From the IMG/VR virus record IMGVR_UViG_3300031758_000217, positions 1 to 37,779 of that record: DNA of 37,779 bases; one strand, written 5' to 3'. Numbering within the stretch: position 1 is the first letter of the stretch; the number at the start of each line of letters is the position of its first letter. The position numbers and the translations under genes were made by a program. This document shows positions 15,234-34,447 of the stretch, piece by piece. The notes beneath the pieces are model-generated. The model did no database searches and was not told where the DNA came from. It was given only the letters and a program-made list of their open reading frames with translations. Source of the stretch: a virus.

Positions 15234-15635
15234 TTAGAAGATACTTACTCGCTGCACGTTGTCGAATGGGTCACGGTATGGTTCGTGTAGCCATGAGTGT
15301 CTATGACCAGGGACGGGTTCAGGTAGGTCTGCGATTACTTTCTTAGTTTCTTTAGGTAATTTAACATTATCCCATTGGTAAGTCTTGCTTAATTTAACTA
15401 CATGACCATTTAACTCATTTGCTAGGAATAATCCTTCTGATGTTACACCTGCCTCAAAATCTGCCTTATAGCGTTTGCTATTAAATTTCAGTAGATGAGC
15501 AACAACTTCCATTATTCTATCTATTGTAAAATGTGGTTGATTAGAAAGTAGATGTGCCAATATAGCAGGATTAAACCAATGGTCTTCTACTGCATTAGCC
15601 AAATCGTCTGCTAACTTCTGTTCTTTAGTTTTCAT
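15234..15635 (-). CDS. Hypothetical protein, 133 aa
   Basis: Has its own promoter (15660-15688) and the ribosome-binding site AGGAG. Helical N-terminal half (EQKLADDLANAVEDHWF, RIMEVVAHLLKF) and a Pro/His-rich C-terminal part (PEPVPGHRHSWLHEPYRDPF). No family recognised. Confidence 0.68.
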   Translation of the reverse strand: MKTKEQKLADDLANAVEDHWFNPAILAHLLSNQPHFTIDRIMEVVAHLLKFNSKRYKADFEAGVTSEGLFLANELNGHVVKLSKTYQWDNVKLPKETKKVIADLPEPVPGHRHSWLHEPYRDPFDNVQRVSIF

Positions 15636-15659
15636 ATCCGCCTCTCCTAGTAACCTTGA

Positions 15660-17088: not shown

Positions 17089-17318
17089 TATTTCTCCTCA
17101 TTCCATTCAATGTAGTATTGGTCTTCGGGTTTCAAATCATAGAATAGATTAAATCTACCCTTAATATAATTATCTCCTGACATATCGGCAAAGCACCAAT
17201 CTGCATACATTTGACCCTCATCTAAATTGGAATTAGTCCAATCTTCAACAAGTTGTTCGCCTATCTCAGAATAGATAGCGTCTATAACCATTTGGTTTTC
17301 ATTCTCTAAGAAACTCAT
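17088..17318 (-). CDS. Hypothetical protein, 76 aa
   Basis: ATG 17318 overlaps the previous stop (ATGA) and follows AAAGGCGGAAGT. Acidic, with a WCFADMSGD centre and YYIEWNEEK tail. No family recognised. Confidence 0.6.
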   Translation of the reverse strand: MSFLENENQMVIDAIYSEIGEQLVEDWTNSNLDEGQMYADWCFADMSGDNYIKGRFNLFYDLKPEDQYYIEWNEEK

Positions 17319-18088
17319 ACTTCCGCCTTTTCTGTAGAAGGTAAGAATACCATATGGGTCTGACATTTTGCCATTGCCTCTTGGTCTTGCCAAGAACCTT
17401 GGTGGCAGTTAGAACAGAATTCTCCACAGTCATCCTCACAATAATCTAATGTGTCAAAAGACTGACATGCATAGCAACGATTCTCATATGAAAGAATCTC
17501 CTTTACTTCACCACGCACAATCTCATATTCCCCACCCCAGCCTGTTTCTTCTTCATACTCTAATGTGAGTAAAGAGTTAGGAACTAAGTTAGATAGTTTA
17601 GTTAGAATAGTTACAGCAGGTGACCATGCAGTCTCATATTTATATACAAGCCAGTTATCATCACCGTCTGATTTATATTCAAGTAATTCTGTTTCAGGAT
17701 ACTTGTCATCATCTGATACAGCAACATCCCATTTGGTTCCCCAATTAGAATTATTCCATGAATACCAATCCTTCTGAGTTTTAGCAAACTCAACAGACTT
17801 AGCAAACCAATCAGGGTCATCTAGATTTATGCCACCACGGTCAGGCTGTTGTGCATATTCCTCATCAGTAATTCCCTCATCCTTATATGAGTGGATATTA
17901 AAGAAAGCAAAGACAGGGTTAGAATAAGTAACCTCTTTAAATTTGGTGGGGAATCCATTAGGATTAATATCACCCATACCATGTGTCTCTATTGCTAAAG
18001 TAAACGGCTTATTAAGTCTATCCTTAATAGAATCAATTTCAGCCTTTGGACCTTGTATCGTTAATGTGTTATACACCCAATTTGGCAT
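17315..18088 (-). CDS. YubB/DUF1281-like ferredoxin-fold protein with zinc tail
   Basis: 257 aa. Start ATG 18088 (MPNWVYNTLTI) is 8 bases after AACGAAAGG; starts further upstream fall in the promoter. N-terminal MPNWVYNTLTIQG and the WGTKWDVAV region match the Api92/YubB ferredoxin-like family (DUF1281) found on plasmids and phages. The C-terminus adds a cysteine-rich zinc segment (CYAC, CEDDCGEFCSNC). Role unknown. Confidence 0.72.
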   Translation of the reverse strand: MPNWVYNTLTIQGPKAEIDSIKDRLNKPFTLAIETHGMGDINPNGFPTKFKEVTYSNPVFAFFNIHSYKDEGITDEEYAQQPDRGGINLDDPDWFAKSVEFAKTQKDWYSWNNSNWGTKWDVAVSDDDKYPETELLEYKSDGDDNWLVYKYETAWSPAVTILTKLSNLVPNSLLTLEYEEETGWGGEYEIVRGEVKEILSYENRCYACQSFDTLDYCEDDCGEFCSNCHQGSWQDQEAMAKCQTHMVFLPSTEKAEV

Positions 18089-18442: not shown

Positions 18443-18850
18443 TCAGACAACTAGAATTTCTTCTAATGCATACTTCTCACAGAATGAACTTAGGTCCATG
18501 GTGAAGATTGCATCATTATTCATTCCACGTACTTTGTTATCTTGGTCTGAATGTGGCGCTTCTTCGTGAAGACTAAATGTTTGTTGCGAGAAATCAACAA
18601 TAGCAATCTTGTGCTCATTGTCACCAATCTCATTTACATAGAGGCCCCATCCAGTTTCGCTAGACCATTGGTTTCCAACTAGATGACTAGTTGCGATACG
18701 TGTTGCATATGATGAATCATTCCAACGTGGACGTGCAGCAATGACAGCGTCCGCTAGTCTACCTAGCATTTGATGTCCAGCCCAGTGCCCGTATAGTACA
18801 ATTGTATTTCCGTTTGGCTGTACAAAGCCAAAGTTTGCTCTATCTCCCAT
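18443..18850 (-). CDS. Hypothetical protein, 135 aa
   Basis: Begins MGDRANFGFVQPNGNTIVLYGHWAG, a pattern I recognise as recurring in actinophage genomes without known function. One compact domain with conserved-looking Trp/Gly residues. Preceded by GGCGGAA. Last coding gene before the candidate RNA. Confidence 0.7.
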   Translation of the reverse strand: MGDRANFGFVQPNGNTIVLYGHWAGHQMLGRLADAVIAARPRWNDSSYATRIATSHLVGNQWSSETGWGLYVNEIGDNEHKIAIVDFSQQTFSLHEEAPHSDQDNKVRGMNNDAIFTMDLSSFCEKYALEEILVV

Positions 18851-18851
18851 T

Positions 18852-19043
18852 TTATTCCGCCGTTTCTAGTAGTTGTGGTGATTCTTCCTTTTTGTCTAAT
18901 TCTATAACTTCATAGGCCCATTTGTCAAGAGCCTCTGACTTTTCGTTATAGTGGTGGCCACAGAACGTTAATTCCCCGTTTGTGGAGCGGGCAAGAAACT
19001 TAGCCTGAGCTGAACAAGTATCACACTTAATCCATTCTGTCAT
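18852..19043 (-). CDS. DUF7455-like zinc-finger protein, 63 aa
   Basis: CDTCSAQAKFLARSTNGELTFCGHHY gives Cys-x2-Cys and Cys-x-His-His ligands, matching the short actinobacterial zinc proteins of the DUF7455 type. ATGA coupling to the upstream gene. Role unknown in host and phage. Confidence 0.72.
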   Translation of the reverse strand: MTEWIKCDTCSAQAKFLARSTNGELTFCGHHYNEKSEALDKWAYEVIELDKKEESPQLLETAE

Positions 19044-27796: not shown

Positions 27797-28078
27797 ATGA
27801 AGTCGGAAAAGACGACGGATAGAAAACACAGAGCTTATTTGGTTAAATATATCCAAGAGCTGAAGTCAAACACTCCCTGTATGGACTGTAAGGAATCTTT
27901 TCCATACTATGTAATGGATTTTGATCATGTGCGTGGGCGGAAGCACAAGAATGTAATGGAACTTATTCCTACATTGTCCAAGAAGAAGATAGATGAAGAA
28001 ATAGCAAAGTGTGAAATCGTTTGCTCAAATTGTCATAGAGTTAGAACTCATAATCGTAAATCTAAGAAATCTGAATAA
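27797..28078 (+). CDS. HNH endonuclease-like protein, 93 aa
   Basis: Leaderless: TATAAT at 27785-27790 is 7 bases before the ATG. CMDC, then YVMDFDHV (the D-x-D-H of the ββα-metal core) and IAKCEIVCSNCHRVRT (CxxCH) give the zinc-structured HNH fold. Compact relative to homing endonucleases; close relative of 28714-29109, which lies past the next tRNA. Could be a homing or host-DNA-degrading nuclease. Confidence 0.8.
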   Translation: MKSEKTTDRKHRAYLVKYIQELKSNTPCMDCKESFPYYVMDFDHVRGRKHKNVMELIPTLSKKKIDEEIAKCEIVCSNCHRVRTHNRKSKKSE

Positions 28079-28400: not shown

Positions 28401-28532
28401 ATGGCTAAAAGTGGCTTAGAGCCCCTACAGAGCAATTTAGAGGCATATTCTGGCAAATGGGGTAAAGGGGAAATGTCTCTCTTCCGCCGAATCACTTTTT
28501 CGGACGCACTTTTTAAATCGCACTTTATATAA
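28401..28532 (+). CDS. Doubtful small ORF, 43 aa
   Basis: Open from ATG 28401 after the palindromic TTGACCCCTAGGGTCA. Contains KSGLEPLQSNLEAYSGKWGKGE. No ribosome-binding site and no family; it may be chance. Outside it, 28343-28588 holds only the parS-like site. Confidence 0.28.
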   Translation: MAKSGLEPLQSNLEAYSGKWGKGEMSLFRRITFSDALFKSHFI

Positions 28533-28678: not shown

Positions 28679-28707
28679 TTGACATGATTCGATGCATTAT
28701 GTACAAT
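28679..28707 (+). promoter_or_regulatory. Promoter for leaderless HTH-HNH gene
   Basis: TTGACA (28679-28684), 17-bp spacer, TACAAT (28702-28707); ATG 28714 is 7 bases past the -10. Frames starting at 28684 begin inside the -35 box. Confidence 0.76.
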
Positions 28708-28713
28708 CGAACC

Positions 28714-29109
28714 ATGAGACATAAAGAAGAAATTATTAGACTTCGATCTGAAGGCAAGACATATAATCAGATAGTAGAAGCGCTGGGTTGTTCTAAAGGG
28801 ACCATAGCTTATCATTTGAGCGAAAGCGTCAAAGTTAATTACAATACACGTAAAAGAAGTTATAGGCGAGTTATTGATAAACATATTAGAGACTATAAAG
28901 AATCATTTGGCTGTGTAGATTGTGGAGAAAAGTATCCATACTATATGCTCGATCTAGACCATATTTCTGATAATAAAAAATTTAGCGTTTCAGATTATAG
29001 AAGTCACACTCAAAACATAGAAATAATAAAAGAAGAAATAGCCAAATGCGAAGTTGTTTGTGCTAACTGTCATAGAATAAGAACTTATCAAAGATCTGCA
29101 AAATCTTAA
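28714..29109 (+). CDS. HTH-HNH endonuclease, 131 aa
   Basis: Leaderless start ATG 28714. Residues ~5-40 form a resolvase/Hin-type helix-turn-helix (IIRLRSEGKTYNQIVEALGCSKGTIAYHL). The C-terminal half is an HNH domain: CVDC, YYMLDLDHI and IAKCEVVCANCHRIRT. It aligns with 27797-28078, which lacks the HTH. Located between tRNA-Asn and tRNA-Arg; a tRNA-targeting homing endonuclease is a fair guess. Confidence 0.82.
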   Translation: MRHKEEIIRLRSEGKTYNQIVEALGCSKGTIAYHLSESVKVNYNTRKRSYRRVIDKHIRDYKESFGCVDCGEKYPYYMLDLDHISDNKKFSVSDYRSHTQNIEIIKEEIAKCEVVCANCHRIRTYQRSAKS

Positions 29110-29190: not shown

Positions 29191-29808
29191 CTAAGCAATA
29201 TTTGTAATTACACCATTTGTCACTGTAATAGTTTGTGCTCCAGCAGTAAATGTTCCAGATACGCCTTTAAAATTAACCCATTTAGATCCATCCCACTTAA
29301 TCATATCCCCAGCTGTTTTACCTGTCAAAACAAGATTATGCAATTCTTCTAACTCAAAACCATTCTGAACCTTTACAAATATTTCTCCGTTGTTTTGCTG
29401 TCTACGAGTTACAATACCAATAAATACTAGATGTGCTGGTGCTACTGGTTTATTGACTAATCCATAAATTAAATTGCCATCTACTCCTAGCCATACTGGA
29501 TCTCCAGCTAATGCAGAGTTAGTGTTTAATCCTTCAAGTAAGCCTTCAGTTATAACGTAACCAATTTCATTTTTTTGAAGATCTTGTTCTAATAGCCCAA
29601 GAGTCTTAGAAGATGTTGGCTCACCTATATTGCTTGCTCTGATTACAAGCATATTGGTACCATCATTGCCAGTAGATCCAGACACATATACCGCTTGACC
29701 TTTATACATAGTACCGTTGTAGTCACTCTTTACTAAGTGTTTAACTGTTGAAACAAAAGAAGGGGATATAACTGTTTGTAAAGTATCAGTAATTCTTATA
29801 CTTGTCAT
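29191..29808 (-). CDS. Tail-fibre-type structural protein, 205 aa
   Basis: Contains the repeat-like segment GQAVYVSGSTG..SSKTLGLLEQ..GYVITEGLLEGLNTNSALAGDPVWLG..NKPVAPAHLVFIGIVTRRQQNNGEIFVKVQNGFEL, which is widespread in tail fibres of marine and freshwater phages. The C-terminus (GDMIKWDGSKWVNFKG) is also fibre-like. Convergent with tRNA-Arg. ATGA coupling to the upstream gene. Confidence 0.8.
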   Translation of the reverse strand: MTSIRITDTLQTVISPSFVSTVKHLVKSDYNGTMYKGQAVYVSGSTGNDGTNMLVIRASNIGEPTSSKTLGLLEQDLQKNEIGYVITEGLLEGLNTNSALAGDPVWLGVDGNLIYGLVNKPVAPAHLVFIGIVTRRQQNNGEIFVKVQNGFELEELHNLVLTGKTAGDMIKWDGSKWVNFKGVSGTFTAGAQTITVTNGVITNIA

Positions 29809-30077
29809 TTTCTGTCTAATTCCATGACAGCTACTTGAACCCCAGCATCGCCTATAGCATATATGTTATCGCTAGAGGAAAGTTCTATCGTAAAAGACTG
29901 TCCTGGGTATAGCTTATGTCCAAAGTTAGAAGTAGATACATTTTCATTTCCAAGATAAGCATATCCAGAATTCATTATATTTTGAATCGATAAAGTGTTA
30001 GTTGAATGAATTTCTTCTCTAGTAACCAAATTTTGAGGTGTACCGTTTAATGTAAGAATTTTATGGGATAGCTTCAT
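29805..30077 (-). CDS. Hypothetical structural protein, 90 aa
   Basis: ATG 30077 is 7 bases after TATAAT (30084-30089), so leaderless; an in-frame ATG at 30155 lies in a putative RNA. Beta-rich, with YPGQSFTIELSSSDNIYAIGDAGVQVAVMEL. Likely tail or adhesion-associated from context with 29191-29808. Confidence 0.65.
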   Translation of the reverse strand: MKLSHKILTLNGTPQNLVTREEIHSTNTLSIQNIMNSGYAYLGNENVSTSNFGHKLYPGQSFTIELSSSDNIYAIGDAGVQVAVMELDRK

Positions 30078-30083
30078 ACTCCC

Positions 30084-30113
30084 ATTATACAGCCAAACAA
30101 GGACAAAACCCAA
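30084..30113 (-). promoter_or_regulatory. Promoter with -35 in terminator arm
   Basis: Minus strand: TTGGGT (plus 30108-30113), 18-bp spacer, TATAAT (plus 30084-30089). The -35 sequence is the 3' arm of the terminator hairpin of the RNA described next. Confidence 0.52.
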
Positions 30114-30189
30114 CCAGAGGCGGATCCGATTGGGTTCTGCTGTTCTTGCGAACATGTACTGGGAGCAAGTGGGATGCTACGACCAGTAC
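30100..30189 (-). ncRNA. Candidate ~90-nt structured RNA
   Basis: Own promoter (30196-30224) and own terminator (AACCCAA...TTGGGTT then TTGTCC). Three hairpins on the minus strand: GTACTGG with CCAGTAC arms around 30156-30190, TGTTC-GCAA-GAACA (30141-30154, a GNRA tetraloop), and the terminator. No coding frame fits. Class unknown. Confidence 0.5.
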
Positions 30190-30195
30190 TTAATA

Positions 30196-30224
30196 ATTGT
30201 AAAATAGTATAAATTCTAAGTCAA
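30196..30224 (-). promoter_or_regulatory. Promoter of candidate RNA
   Basis: Minus strand: TTGACT (plus 30219-30224), 17-bp spacer, TACAAT (plus 30196-30201). Confidence 0.68.
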
Positions 30225-32491: not shown

Positions 32492-34447
32492 ATGGCGAAG
32501 AAAGAGTGTATTATGTCAAGAACTATTGAAAACCCTTACGAAAACTTTATTGCTTTATCTCGTTATGCAAGATGGATGCCTGAAGAAAATCGTCGTGAAA
32601 CTTGGGGAGAAACAGTAGATCGTTATTTTGACTTTATGCTAGATCATCTTAAAGAAAATAATAATTATGTTCCAGACGAAAAAGTTGTTAATGAATTAAA
32701 AGAAGCAGTTTACAATAGAAGCGTAATGCCATCAATGAGAGCAGTAATGACTGCAGGTGCTGCTTTAGAAAGAGATCATGTCGCAGGATATAATTGCTCA
32801 TTTGTTCCAGTAGATTCACCTCGTTCATTTGATGAGACTATGTATATCCTAATGTGCGGTACTGGAGTAGGATTTTCTGTTGAATATAAGTATGTTAATA
32901 AACTTCCTTCCGTTCCAGAAACATTTGAAAAGTCTACAACAGTAATTACGGTAGAAGATTCAAAGCAAGGCTGGGCAAAAGCATATAGAGAACTTTTAGC
33001 ATTATTATGGACTGGACAAGTTCCATCAATTGATGTAAGTAAATTGCGTCCTGCTGGTGCACGTTTAAAGACTATGGGCGGAAGATCATCTGGCCCACAA
33101 CCATTAATTAATCTTTTTGATTTTACAATTGCAAAATTTAAATCAGCATCTGGTCGTCAATTAAAGCCAATTGAAGCTCACGATATTATGTGTAAAATTG
33201 GAGAGATTGTAGTTGTTGGTGGAGTTCGTAGATCTGCAATGATTTCTCTTTCAAATATTAATGATATCGAAATGGCTGCAGCAAAATCTGGCAACTGGTG
33301 GGAAAATAATACACAAAGAGCATTGTCAAACAACTCTGTTGCATATTCACGCAAACCAGAGATGGAGCAGTTTATAGCAGAATGGAAAAATCTTTATGAC
33401 TCAAAGTCTGGCGAACGTGGAATCTATAATGTTGCAGCAGCGCAGGCGCAAGCAGCTAAATATGGCCGTAGAGACCCTGAAGTACATTATGGAACAAACC
33501 CATGTTCAGAAATTATTCTCCGTCCTTATCAGTTTTGTAATCTTTCAGAAGTCGTATTACGTGAAAAGGACACAGTTGAGGATGTATCAAATAAAGTACG
33601 CCTTGCTACAATTCTTGGGACTTGGCAATCAACGCTAACAGATTTCAAATACCTTCGTAAAATTTGGAAAGACAACACAGAAGAAGAAAGACTGCTTGGA
33701 GTTTCTTTAACTGGTCAATTTGGACATAAATTCTTTTCTGGCAAACAAGACCTTAAGAAGCTTGAATCAACACTTTCTAGCCTTAGAGAATATGCTAGAT
33801 CTATTAACTCAGAAGAGGCAGCAAAGGTAGGTATTCCAGAATCGGCAGCAATTACATGTGTTAAGCCTTCTGGAACAGTATCTCAACTAGTTGGAGTTTC
33901 TTCTGGAATGCACCCATGGCATTCAGAATATTATATTAGAACCGTTCGTGGAGATAAAAAAGATCCTCTATCTACATTTTTAAAAGAAGTTGGAATTCCA
34001 GTAGAAGATGACTTTATGAAACCAAACGATACATATGTATTTTCATTTCCAGTAAAAGCACCAGATGGTGCAATTATAAGAAATGACTTAACAGCACTAG
34101 ATCATTTAAATACCTGGCTTGTATACCAACGTGCATGGTGTGAACACAAGCCTTCAATTACAGTATCTGTTCGTGAGGAAGAATGGATGGCTGTAGGAGC
34201 TTGGGTATGGGAGCACTTTGATGAAGTATCTGGAATTTCGTTCCTACCGCATTCAGATCATTCATATAAGCAAGCGCCATATCAAGAAGTTTCCGAAACA
34301 GAGTATCTAGAACTACTTGCAAAAATGCCTTCATCTATTCGTTGGGAAGATTTATCTTTTTACGAAACAGAAGACGGAACGTCTGGAACTCAAACATTAG
34401 CATGTACTTCAGACGGCAATTGCGAAATTGTAGACATTTCTGCTTGA
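32492..34447 (+). CDS. nrdJ: Adenosylcobalamin-dependent class II ribonucleotide reductase
   Basis: 651 aa (an internal ATG at 32513 is an alternative). Reduces ribonucleotides in the cytoplasm with an AdoCbl-derived radical. Active-site residues line up with the Lactobacillus monomeric enzyme: Cys102 in NCSF, Asn336-Pro-Cys338-Ser-Glu340 and Cys349 exactly 11 residues after Cys338; C-terminal redox cysteines are Cys638 and Cys644. No small subunit gene is present, as expected for class II. Cofactor supply may come from 13055-13597 and electrons from the thioredoxin at 6395-6697. TAGAAT at 32454-32459 suggests its own promoter. Confidence 0.93.
   Translation: MAKKECIMSRTIENPYENFIALSRYARWMPEENRRETWGETVDRYFDFMLDHLKENNNYVPDEKVVNELKEAVYNRSVMPSMRAVMTAGAALERDHVAGYNCSFVPVDSPRSFDETMYILMCGTGVGFSVEYKYVNKLPSVPETFEKSTTVITVEDSKQGWAKAYRELLALLWTGQVPSIDVSKLRPAGARLKTMGGRSSGPQPLINLFDFTIAKFKSASGRQLKPIEAHDIMCKIGEIVVVGGVRRSAMISLSNINDIEMAAAKSGNWWENNTQRALSNNSVAYSRKPEMEQFIAEWKNLYDSKSGERGIYNVAAAQAQAAKYGRRDPEVHYGTNPCSEIILRPYQFCNLSEVVLREKDTVEDVSNKVRLATILGTWQSTLTDFKYLRKIWKDNTEEERLLGVSLTGQFGHKFFSGKQDLKKLESTLSSLREYARSINSEEAAKVGIPESAAITCVKPSGTVSQLVGVSSGMHPWHSEYYIRTVRGDKKDPLSTFLKEVGIPVEDDFMKPNDTYVFSFPVKAPDGAIIRNDLTALDHLNTWLVYQRAWCEHKPSITVSVREEEWMAVGAWVWEHFDEVSGISFLPHSDHSYKQAPYQEVSETEYLELLAKMPSSIRWEDLSFYETEDGTSGTQTLACTSDGNCEIVDISA

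Follow-up and report, generated by a model that had tools for sequence, protein, structure and literature searches.

A small RNA family of uncultured phages with an invariant terminator loop and a possible role in the control of phage genes

On the minus strand of an uncultured virus, close to genes that may encode tail proteins, a stretch of about 90 bases lies between a promoter and a terminator, and it raises the question of what is made there and what it might do. The stretch belongs to the window analysed here, a DNA of 37,779 nucleotides (positions 1 to 37,779 of IMG/VR virus record IMGVR_UViG_3300031758_000217). A sequence-only reading had described three hairpins in it, one with a GNRA loop, and had left two roles standing, namely an attenuator of the downstream gene or an independent RNA. 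The small RNA is a member of a previously uncatalogued family, approximately 90 nt long, carried by a clade of uncultured viruses of bacteria, and we regard it as nearly certain that this phage small RNA is real, new and widespread.

The RNA gene and its family

The features of the locus, all of which lie on the minus strand, are the following.

30196..30224, minus strand: promoter P1 of the small RNA, TTGACT (30224-30219), a spacer of 17 and TACAAT (30201-30196)
30101..30191, minus strand: small RNA gene, matched by covariance model R1 at 99.2 bits (the window is among the 16 sequences from which R1 was built)
30156..30189, minus strand: hairpin 1, a 7-bp stem GUACUGG/CCAGUAC, a two-nucleotide UC bulge and a G-C pair; further in, an inner stem AGCA/UGCU and a C-rich loop UCCCACU
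30141..30154, minus strand: hairpin 2, UGUUC-GCAA-GAACA, with a GNRA loop
30103..30140, minus strand: terminator hairpin of 16 pairs, including G-U
30119..30124, minus strand: hexaloop UCCGCC of the terminator, closed by A30125-U30118, the proposed seed
30084..30089, minus strand: TATAAT of the downstream gene, 6 nt ahead of the ATG at 30077, a leaderless-type start
29805..30077, minus strand: downstream gene of 90 aa, phrog_30212 (unknown function)

The consensus promoter that had been claimed is present, with 10 of 12 consensus matches, and the predicted 5' end of the RNA lies near 30189. All three hairpins and the intrinsic terminator were recovered on the minus strand, the minimum free energy of the window RNA being −41 kcal/mol against a mean of −21.8 for shuffled sequences (z = −6.3; 0/200 shuffles as good). 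Intrinsic terminator sites were called three times in 2.5 kb, with 1.3 expected, and the window terminator is among them. The GNRA loop holds for the window, in which hairpin 2 carries GCAA, but it is not general, as relatives have UUCG, UUAG and others. An ATG at 30155 is in frame with the downstream gene (ORF 29805-30155). The claim that no coding frame accounts for the stretch was borne out, and a peptide gene at the locus was rejected, as any one phase is open in at most 29 of the 112 distinct copies.

Copies of the family are common in IMG/VR. A 29-base exact terminator core matched 32 contigs, a looser terminator pattern at least 119 stretches, and a hairpin-1 16-mer likewise at least 119 stretches (some of these last matches being due to chance). 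In the collected loci there were 186 terminator-hairpin matches, comprising 117 distinct copies with TTGAC ahead and 7 distinct ones without; these 7 were set aside, and counts over 117 refer to the TTGAC-preceded distinct copies. A −10-like hexamer (xAxxxT) follows at a spacer of exactly 17 in 116 of the 117. The sole exception, L191, is a scripting artefact in which the wrong TTGAC was picked, and owing to this it was left out of the element set as too short.

The 16 copies behind model R1 were picked by hand and align well; in them, 12 of 32 pairs across the three hairpins are changed on both sides and 97.8% of cells are paired. Shuffles equalled this alignment in 0/500 cases on four of five measures and in 36/500 on the fifth. 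A second alignment (A1) holds 54 diverse copies out of 55 representatives, L159 being left out as it runs off the contig end; here 13 of 19 pairs are double-changed, 96.6% of cells are paired, and 0/500 shuffles did as well on all five measures. The outer stem of hairpin 1 has changed on both sides at 7/7 pairs across the 54 sequences. Hairpins 1 and 2 are replaced wholesale between copies with pairing retained, hairpin 2 being a variable stable hairpin which, by reading, is absent in L026, L123, L162 and L177. Since the stems covary strongly, the refutation that the sequence-only reading had proposed for itself, mutations in relatives that break the stems without compensation, fails; the stems held.

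At gathering score, Rfam 15 returned only four tRNAs from the window, and only tRNAs at E ≤ 1 from five other loci. Below threshold, the window RNA drew rli38 (17 bits against a gathering score of 49; E = 8) and MIR5998 (12.7 bits; E = 3.7). The looser terminator pattern had 0 matches in genome_contigs (84,980 species), and a host origin of the RNA was rejected on the zero matches of this one pattern. A scan of three genomes with R1 gave no match among the 150 candidates scored per genome. When two copies were compared with cultured phages by blastn, there were, among the matches listed, just short ones at E ≥ 1, and no publication on this RNA family was found in the literature searched, subscription papers lying outside its reach.

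The covariance-model search in related phages that had been suggested was run on the window with 77 loci, and then 99 loci, of 235, near-duplicates and others being left out. In 36 records searched whole, R1 found the RNA in 27, with one full-scoring copy each. The remaining R1 matches in those records scored weakly, most of them being the same hairpin read on its reverse strand; the single one elsewhere, in G008, was without the loop. The nine RNA-less records had been recruited via a shared tail-fiber-like protein. A reductase-based set held 41 records (39 found by ribonucleotide reductase, and two Streptomyces phages), of which 26 carry the RNA. The RNA is missing from 15: both Streptomyces phages, Yaboi and Wofford, and 13 virus records, none of which exceeds 33 kb; in at least four of the 13 (G039, G040, G062 and G070) less than 2 kb is left beside the reductase, and in the window the RNA and the reductase are 2.3 kb apart.

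The window phage is probably a relative of the Stanwilliamsviridae, because its gene order of glycosyltransferase and reductase is common to the Streptomyces phages and its reductase is up to 66.6% identical to theirs. From this kinship, the host is likely to be an actinobacterium. As a separate observation, two related small proteins of the window (27797-28078 and 28684-29109) stand beside genes for tRNA-Met, tRNA-Asn and tRNA-Arg, and resemble HNH proteins that adjoin a tRNA gene in Streptomyces phage Yaboi; Pfam gave no HNH match for either, and for the second just a helix-turn-helix below the cut-off.

The terminator loop and its complement at gene starts

The A-UCCGCC-U hexaloop is unchanged in every copy read, even where the stem around it has been replaced (e.g., L026, L385, L392 and L393). 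The first two terminator scans required most of the loop; other routes to copies did not, and copies reached via the tail-region protein or the ribonucleotide reductase have the loop too. Five records (L385-L389; two distinct sequences) keep it with hairpin 1 and the −35 box unrecognisable. A scan of all loci gathered with the hairpin-1 16-mer gave at least 91 distinct matches. The loop is present in 77 of these, each preceded by TTGAC, and the 14 loop-less ones (4 with TTGAC) gave no R1 match at E ≤ 1. The promoter is less constant than the loop, with TTGAC upstream in 10 of 16 distinct reductase-selected copies and some divergent copies having no clear −35. No loop variant with which compensation could be tested was found among the copies. 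Because a terminator needs no fixed loop, the loop is likely to be the working part of the RNA. A lone terminator hairpin with the same loop and no hairpin 1 also occurs in L198 (1366-1460, minus strand).

The complement of the loop, GGCGGA, first stood out as unusually common and as present in the reductase leader. Gene starts were taken from a simple script that favours Shine-Dalgarno-like words, leaders were defined as the 30 nt before the predicted start, and 15 RNA-bearing records were used in part (37.8-100 kb each). GGCGGA occurs in the leaders of 58 of 1948 predicted genes in these 15 records vs 1 of 885 in five controls, and in 1 of 1088 leaders when six RNA-less records are pooled (p = 1e-10 for the pooled contrast, ignoring kinship between records). 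Six RNA-bearing records fetched after the motif had been noticed gave 22/682 (p = 9e-9 vs the pooled controls). Because the genomes are related, the excess was also counted per protein cluster, where it is 19/871 vs 0/798.

Among 1902 hexamers, each present in at least 8 leaders, GGCGGA ranks third in separating records with the RNA from those without, as does AGGCGGA among 1467 heptamers (44 vs 0); the words ranked above them are two promoter −10 motifs. Against the two G+C-richer Streptomyces phages alone, AU-rich hexamers lead and GGCGGA is outside the best 15. When the hexamers of the RNA are ordered by the enrichment of their complements in leaders, the top two come from the loop (AGGCGG, 60 vs 10.6 expected; GGCGGA, 56 vs 16.1). 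The complement of the hairpin-1 stretch CUCCCA, UGGGAG, is Shine-Dalgarno-like and also enriched (30 vs 5.4 expected), which is expected because CUCCCA is C-rich. The hairpin-1 loop complement GUGGGAU gave no signal, with two leaders in records with the RNA and none in those without. On a separate matter, the hexamer that best separates the gene leaders of this clade from controls is GTATAA, and many clade genes have TATAAT shortly before ATG, which suggests widespread leaderless starts.

Three sites for the loop are predicted in the window.

15637..15643, minus strand: predicted site AGGCGGA(U), immediately ahead of a 133-aa gene whose ATG is at 15635; 8-bp pairing with AUCCGCCU, predicted −14.0 kcal/mol
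17322..17328, minus strand: predicted site AGGCGGA, ahead of a 76-aa gene whose ATG is at 17318; predicted −12.9 kcal/mol
18856..18861, minus strand: predicted site GGCGGA, ahead of a 135-aa gene whose ATG is at 18850 (phrog_31860, unknown function); predicted −12.4 kcal/mol

The 133-aa gene had no family match; in its own family the site stands before 9 of 10 members by listing, two of them in tandem, and before 5/10 when cutting at −3. Reductase leaders carry GGCGGA in 111 of 119 distinct cases (66/70 in an earlier set). The eight without it include the window's own, which has a mismatch (GGCGAA; predicted loop pairing −7.7 kcal/mol), and seven of the eight are in records whose RNA keeps the loop. 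The site is also found in 5 of 7 distinct leaders of a DnaE-type polymerase and 3 of 5 of a DnaB-like helicase (both annotated with Pfam and PHROGs from one representative each), in all 11 leaders of a gene with MGDRANFGF and in 5 of 9 of a small family with DLSFTRN, and further genes carry it in several records. In the reductase leader the site sits in a small hairpin, which is kept as a hairpin with other letters in the Streptomyces phages. The reductase as sole target was rejected because this hairpin exists without the RNA in those phages and because 8/119 leaders have no site.

Some related observations stand apart from the leader counts. The small hairpin just before the ribosome site of class II ribonucleotide reductase genes (upstream of window position 32513; L298-L377, L378 and L379) forms a separate cis element, which two Streptomyces phages keep as a hairpin although its letters differ there. 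AGTGC units, closed off by GGCGGA and purines, make up a non-coding motif that recurs (window 28470-28520, minus strand; L225 4900-4960; L149; L183), often near the small RNA or tRNA genes. Pairing of the RNA with 16S rRNA was considered and dropped.

A real RNA whose loop acts on the host, either on its mRNAs or on an RNA-binding protein of host or phage, would leave AGGCGGA as an unrelated, clade-specific variant of the ribosome-binding site, and we consider this unlikely, though worth weighing. AGGCGGA contains AGG, often after AA, and can serve as a weak Shine-Dalgarno sequence; the leader sites peak where ribosome sites sit, mostly at −12 to −7; and the leader of the window's reductase is mismatched although the loop of the window's RNA is intact. 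Ordinary ribosome binding could account for part of the signal, because AGGCGGA overlaps the Shine-Dalgarno-like AAGG. However, at the variable position of AGGNGGA (in leaders A 53, C 44, G 2 and T 9) C is preferred over T, although it breaks the Shine-Dalgarno match, with 44 to 9 in leaders vs 332 to 263 genome-wide (p = 2e-5) and, per protein cluster, 19 to 7 vs 0 to 5 (p = 0.005). The comparison of C with G, which could wobble-pair with the anti-Shine-Dalgarno sequence and would be the better variant if this were solely a ribosome site, was not significant (p = 0.56).

A relative without the RNA provides the best control, and it also speaks against a host-acting loop. A protein scan of genome_contigs gave seven loci. 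The closest of them is a phage-like contig of 110 kb that is catalogued within a cyanobacterium MAG (CAINGU010000031.1; L507-L512) and is probably a mis-binned phage related to this clade. Its reductase is 78% identical to that of the window, 75 of its 203 predicted genes have relatives in the set, and its G+C content is 35.0% vs 35-38% in RNA-bearing records. R1 gave no match above 10 bits on it. On this single contig GGCGGA is in 0/203 leaders, vs 58/1948 (p = 0.003), and AGGCGGA occurs 7 times in 110 kb vs 16-36 times per 79-100 kb in the larger RNA-bearing records. Four of its leaders have AGGAGGA and none AGGCGGA, and its reductase leader has an ordinary AGGAG site.

Genomic context of the RNA

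The 90-aa gene that follows the RNA in the window is itself followed by one of 205 aa, which shows weak similarity to a tail fiber (E = 0.001). The leaderless start that had been ascribed to the 90-aa gene is plausible, given the TATAAT 6 nt before its ATG. The proposal of a −35 for this gene within the terminator arm fared less well: the sole candidate, TTGGGT, agrees at 3/6 positions and was not called, and the distance from the terminator stem to TATAAT varies from 8 to 35 nt among 66 copies (43 at 18-19).

As an attenuator or late-leader RNA, the terminator would control the downstream gene in the manner of the lambda 6S leader, which stands ahead of the lambda late operon. A TATAAT and a start codon do follow the terminator in the window and in 59/117 distinct copies, and the first ORF beyond it shares its strand in 75/117 contexts. 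However, in 51/117 copies the 50 nt that follow the terminator contain no TATAAT (2 of these copies run off the contig end), the first ORF beyond it is encoded on the opposite strand in 33/117 contexts and absent in 9/117, and opposite-strand tRNA genes lie beyond the terminator in 14/14 loci picked by eye. The terminator is not always ahead of, and oriented toward, a gene to be controlled, as it is in a lambda 6S-type leader. Moreover, where a gene does follow, it is in most cases provided with a −10 of its own and a start of leaderless type, and it therefore needs no readthrough. An attenuator or late leader was rejected as a general role on this genomic context, and we hold it to be very unlikely. 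The 51 copies with no downstream TATAAT argue for an independent RNA rather than an attenuator, and the alternative of an independent RNA fits the covarying stems, the promoter that precedes almost every copy, the single full copy in each record searched that has the RNA, and the lack of a fixed gene downstream. That the small RNA is independent, and not an attenuator as a general role, is strongly supported.

Less credible still is that the RNA is only a strong conserved terminator for small upstream genes with incidental hairpins, since, although a same-strand ORF ends 11-54 nt before it in 98/117 contexts, L198 has the terminator hairpin and loop after another gene without the rest, and 6/16 distinct reductase-selected copies are without TTGAC upstream, TTGAC is nevertheless ahead of 117 of 124 distinct hairpin matches, hairpin 1 covaries with its bulge fixed, and an unchanging loop is nothing that a terminator requires.

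A proposed mode of action and its parallels

On balance, we lean towards a phage-encoded, trans-acting sRNA that would regulate the phage's own genes via its terminator loop. As the conserved signals suggest, an RNA of about 90 nt would be transcribed from its own sigma-70-type promoter and ended by the intrinsic terminator. The stems, as their covariation shows, are a scaffold; the working part would be the UCCGCC loop together with the A-U pair that closes it, which is the same in each copy read. This loop would pair with AGGCGGA, which is enriched at or just before start codons, in the mRNAs of ribonucleotide reductase, DnaE-type polymerase, DnaB-like helicase and several conserved small genes. 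With the ribosome-binding site covered, translation of early and replication genes would fall as the RNA accumulates, and such repression may help the shift to late functions. Because of the position of the sites, the RNA probably represses rather than activates. More tentatively, and with our own judgement tilted slightly against it, a single sRNA of this Stanwilliamsviridae-related clade might, through its terminator-loop seed, be the master post-transcriptional regulator of the phage's own early and replication genes, with sites gained gene by gene.

In the way it would work, the RNA most resembles LhrC of Listeria. In the passages of PMC4132741 that concern them, LhrC sRNAs have UCCC motifs in loop A and in the terminator loop that pair with the Shine-Dalgarno region and block translation, and LhrC is grouped with the C-rich-loop sRNAs of Gram-positive bacteria. 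Both RNAs are short, with stem-loops and a terminator, and here AUCCCAC is often found in hairpin 1 and UCCGCC in the terminator loop. C-rich motifs of the LhrC/RsaE-like kind thus occur in hairpin and terminator loops (UCCGCC invariant; UCCCAC in hairpin 1 of many copies), and complementarity to ribosome-binding regions is seen as a statistical enrichment. Unlike LhrC, which is a host gene, the present RNA is a phage gene with an invariant UCCGCC, its predicted targets are the phage's own, and it has no Rfam sequence match.

Other phage RNAs offer partial parallels. As summarised in the relevant passages of a review, c4 RNA (phages P1 and P7), sar RNA (P22) and OOP RNA (lambda) pair with phage mRNA, c4 doing so through loops around the ribosome-binding site, and in that account their targets are single genes (ant, cII) in the control of lysogeny (PMC12197685). 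The present RNA is like them in its predicted pairing to phage mRNA and unlike them in that a single loop has matches at many genes, among them several for replication and nucleotide metabolism. It is also not transcribed opposite its target in the cis-antisense fashion of OOP and sar, being intergenic with predicted window targets approximately 11-15 kb away. According to the same passages, PreS of lambda targets host dnaN, VpdS of phage VP882 has targets among the mRNAs of both phage and host, Hfq binding is described for either sRNA, and the phage RNAs covered by this 2025 review mostly act on single genes or on the host (PMC12197685). Like PreS and VpdS, the present RNA would be a phage-encoded trans-acting sRNA; unlike theirs, its predicted targets are phage genes.

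In T4, the RegA protein acts at the start codons of a set of early phage mRNAs to repress them. If the proposed regulation is true, the small RNA would be an RNA counterpart of RegA, repressing a set of early phage mRNAs with an RNA doing the job of the protein, and the target sites are absent in the relative without the RNA. A conserved phage RNA matching many of the phage's own gene starts would show that RNA can time an infection programme, and this family gives a seven-letter prediction that is checkable gene by gene.
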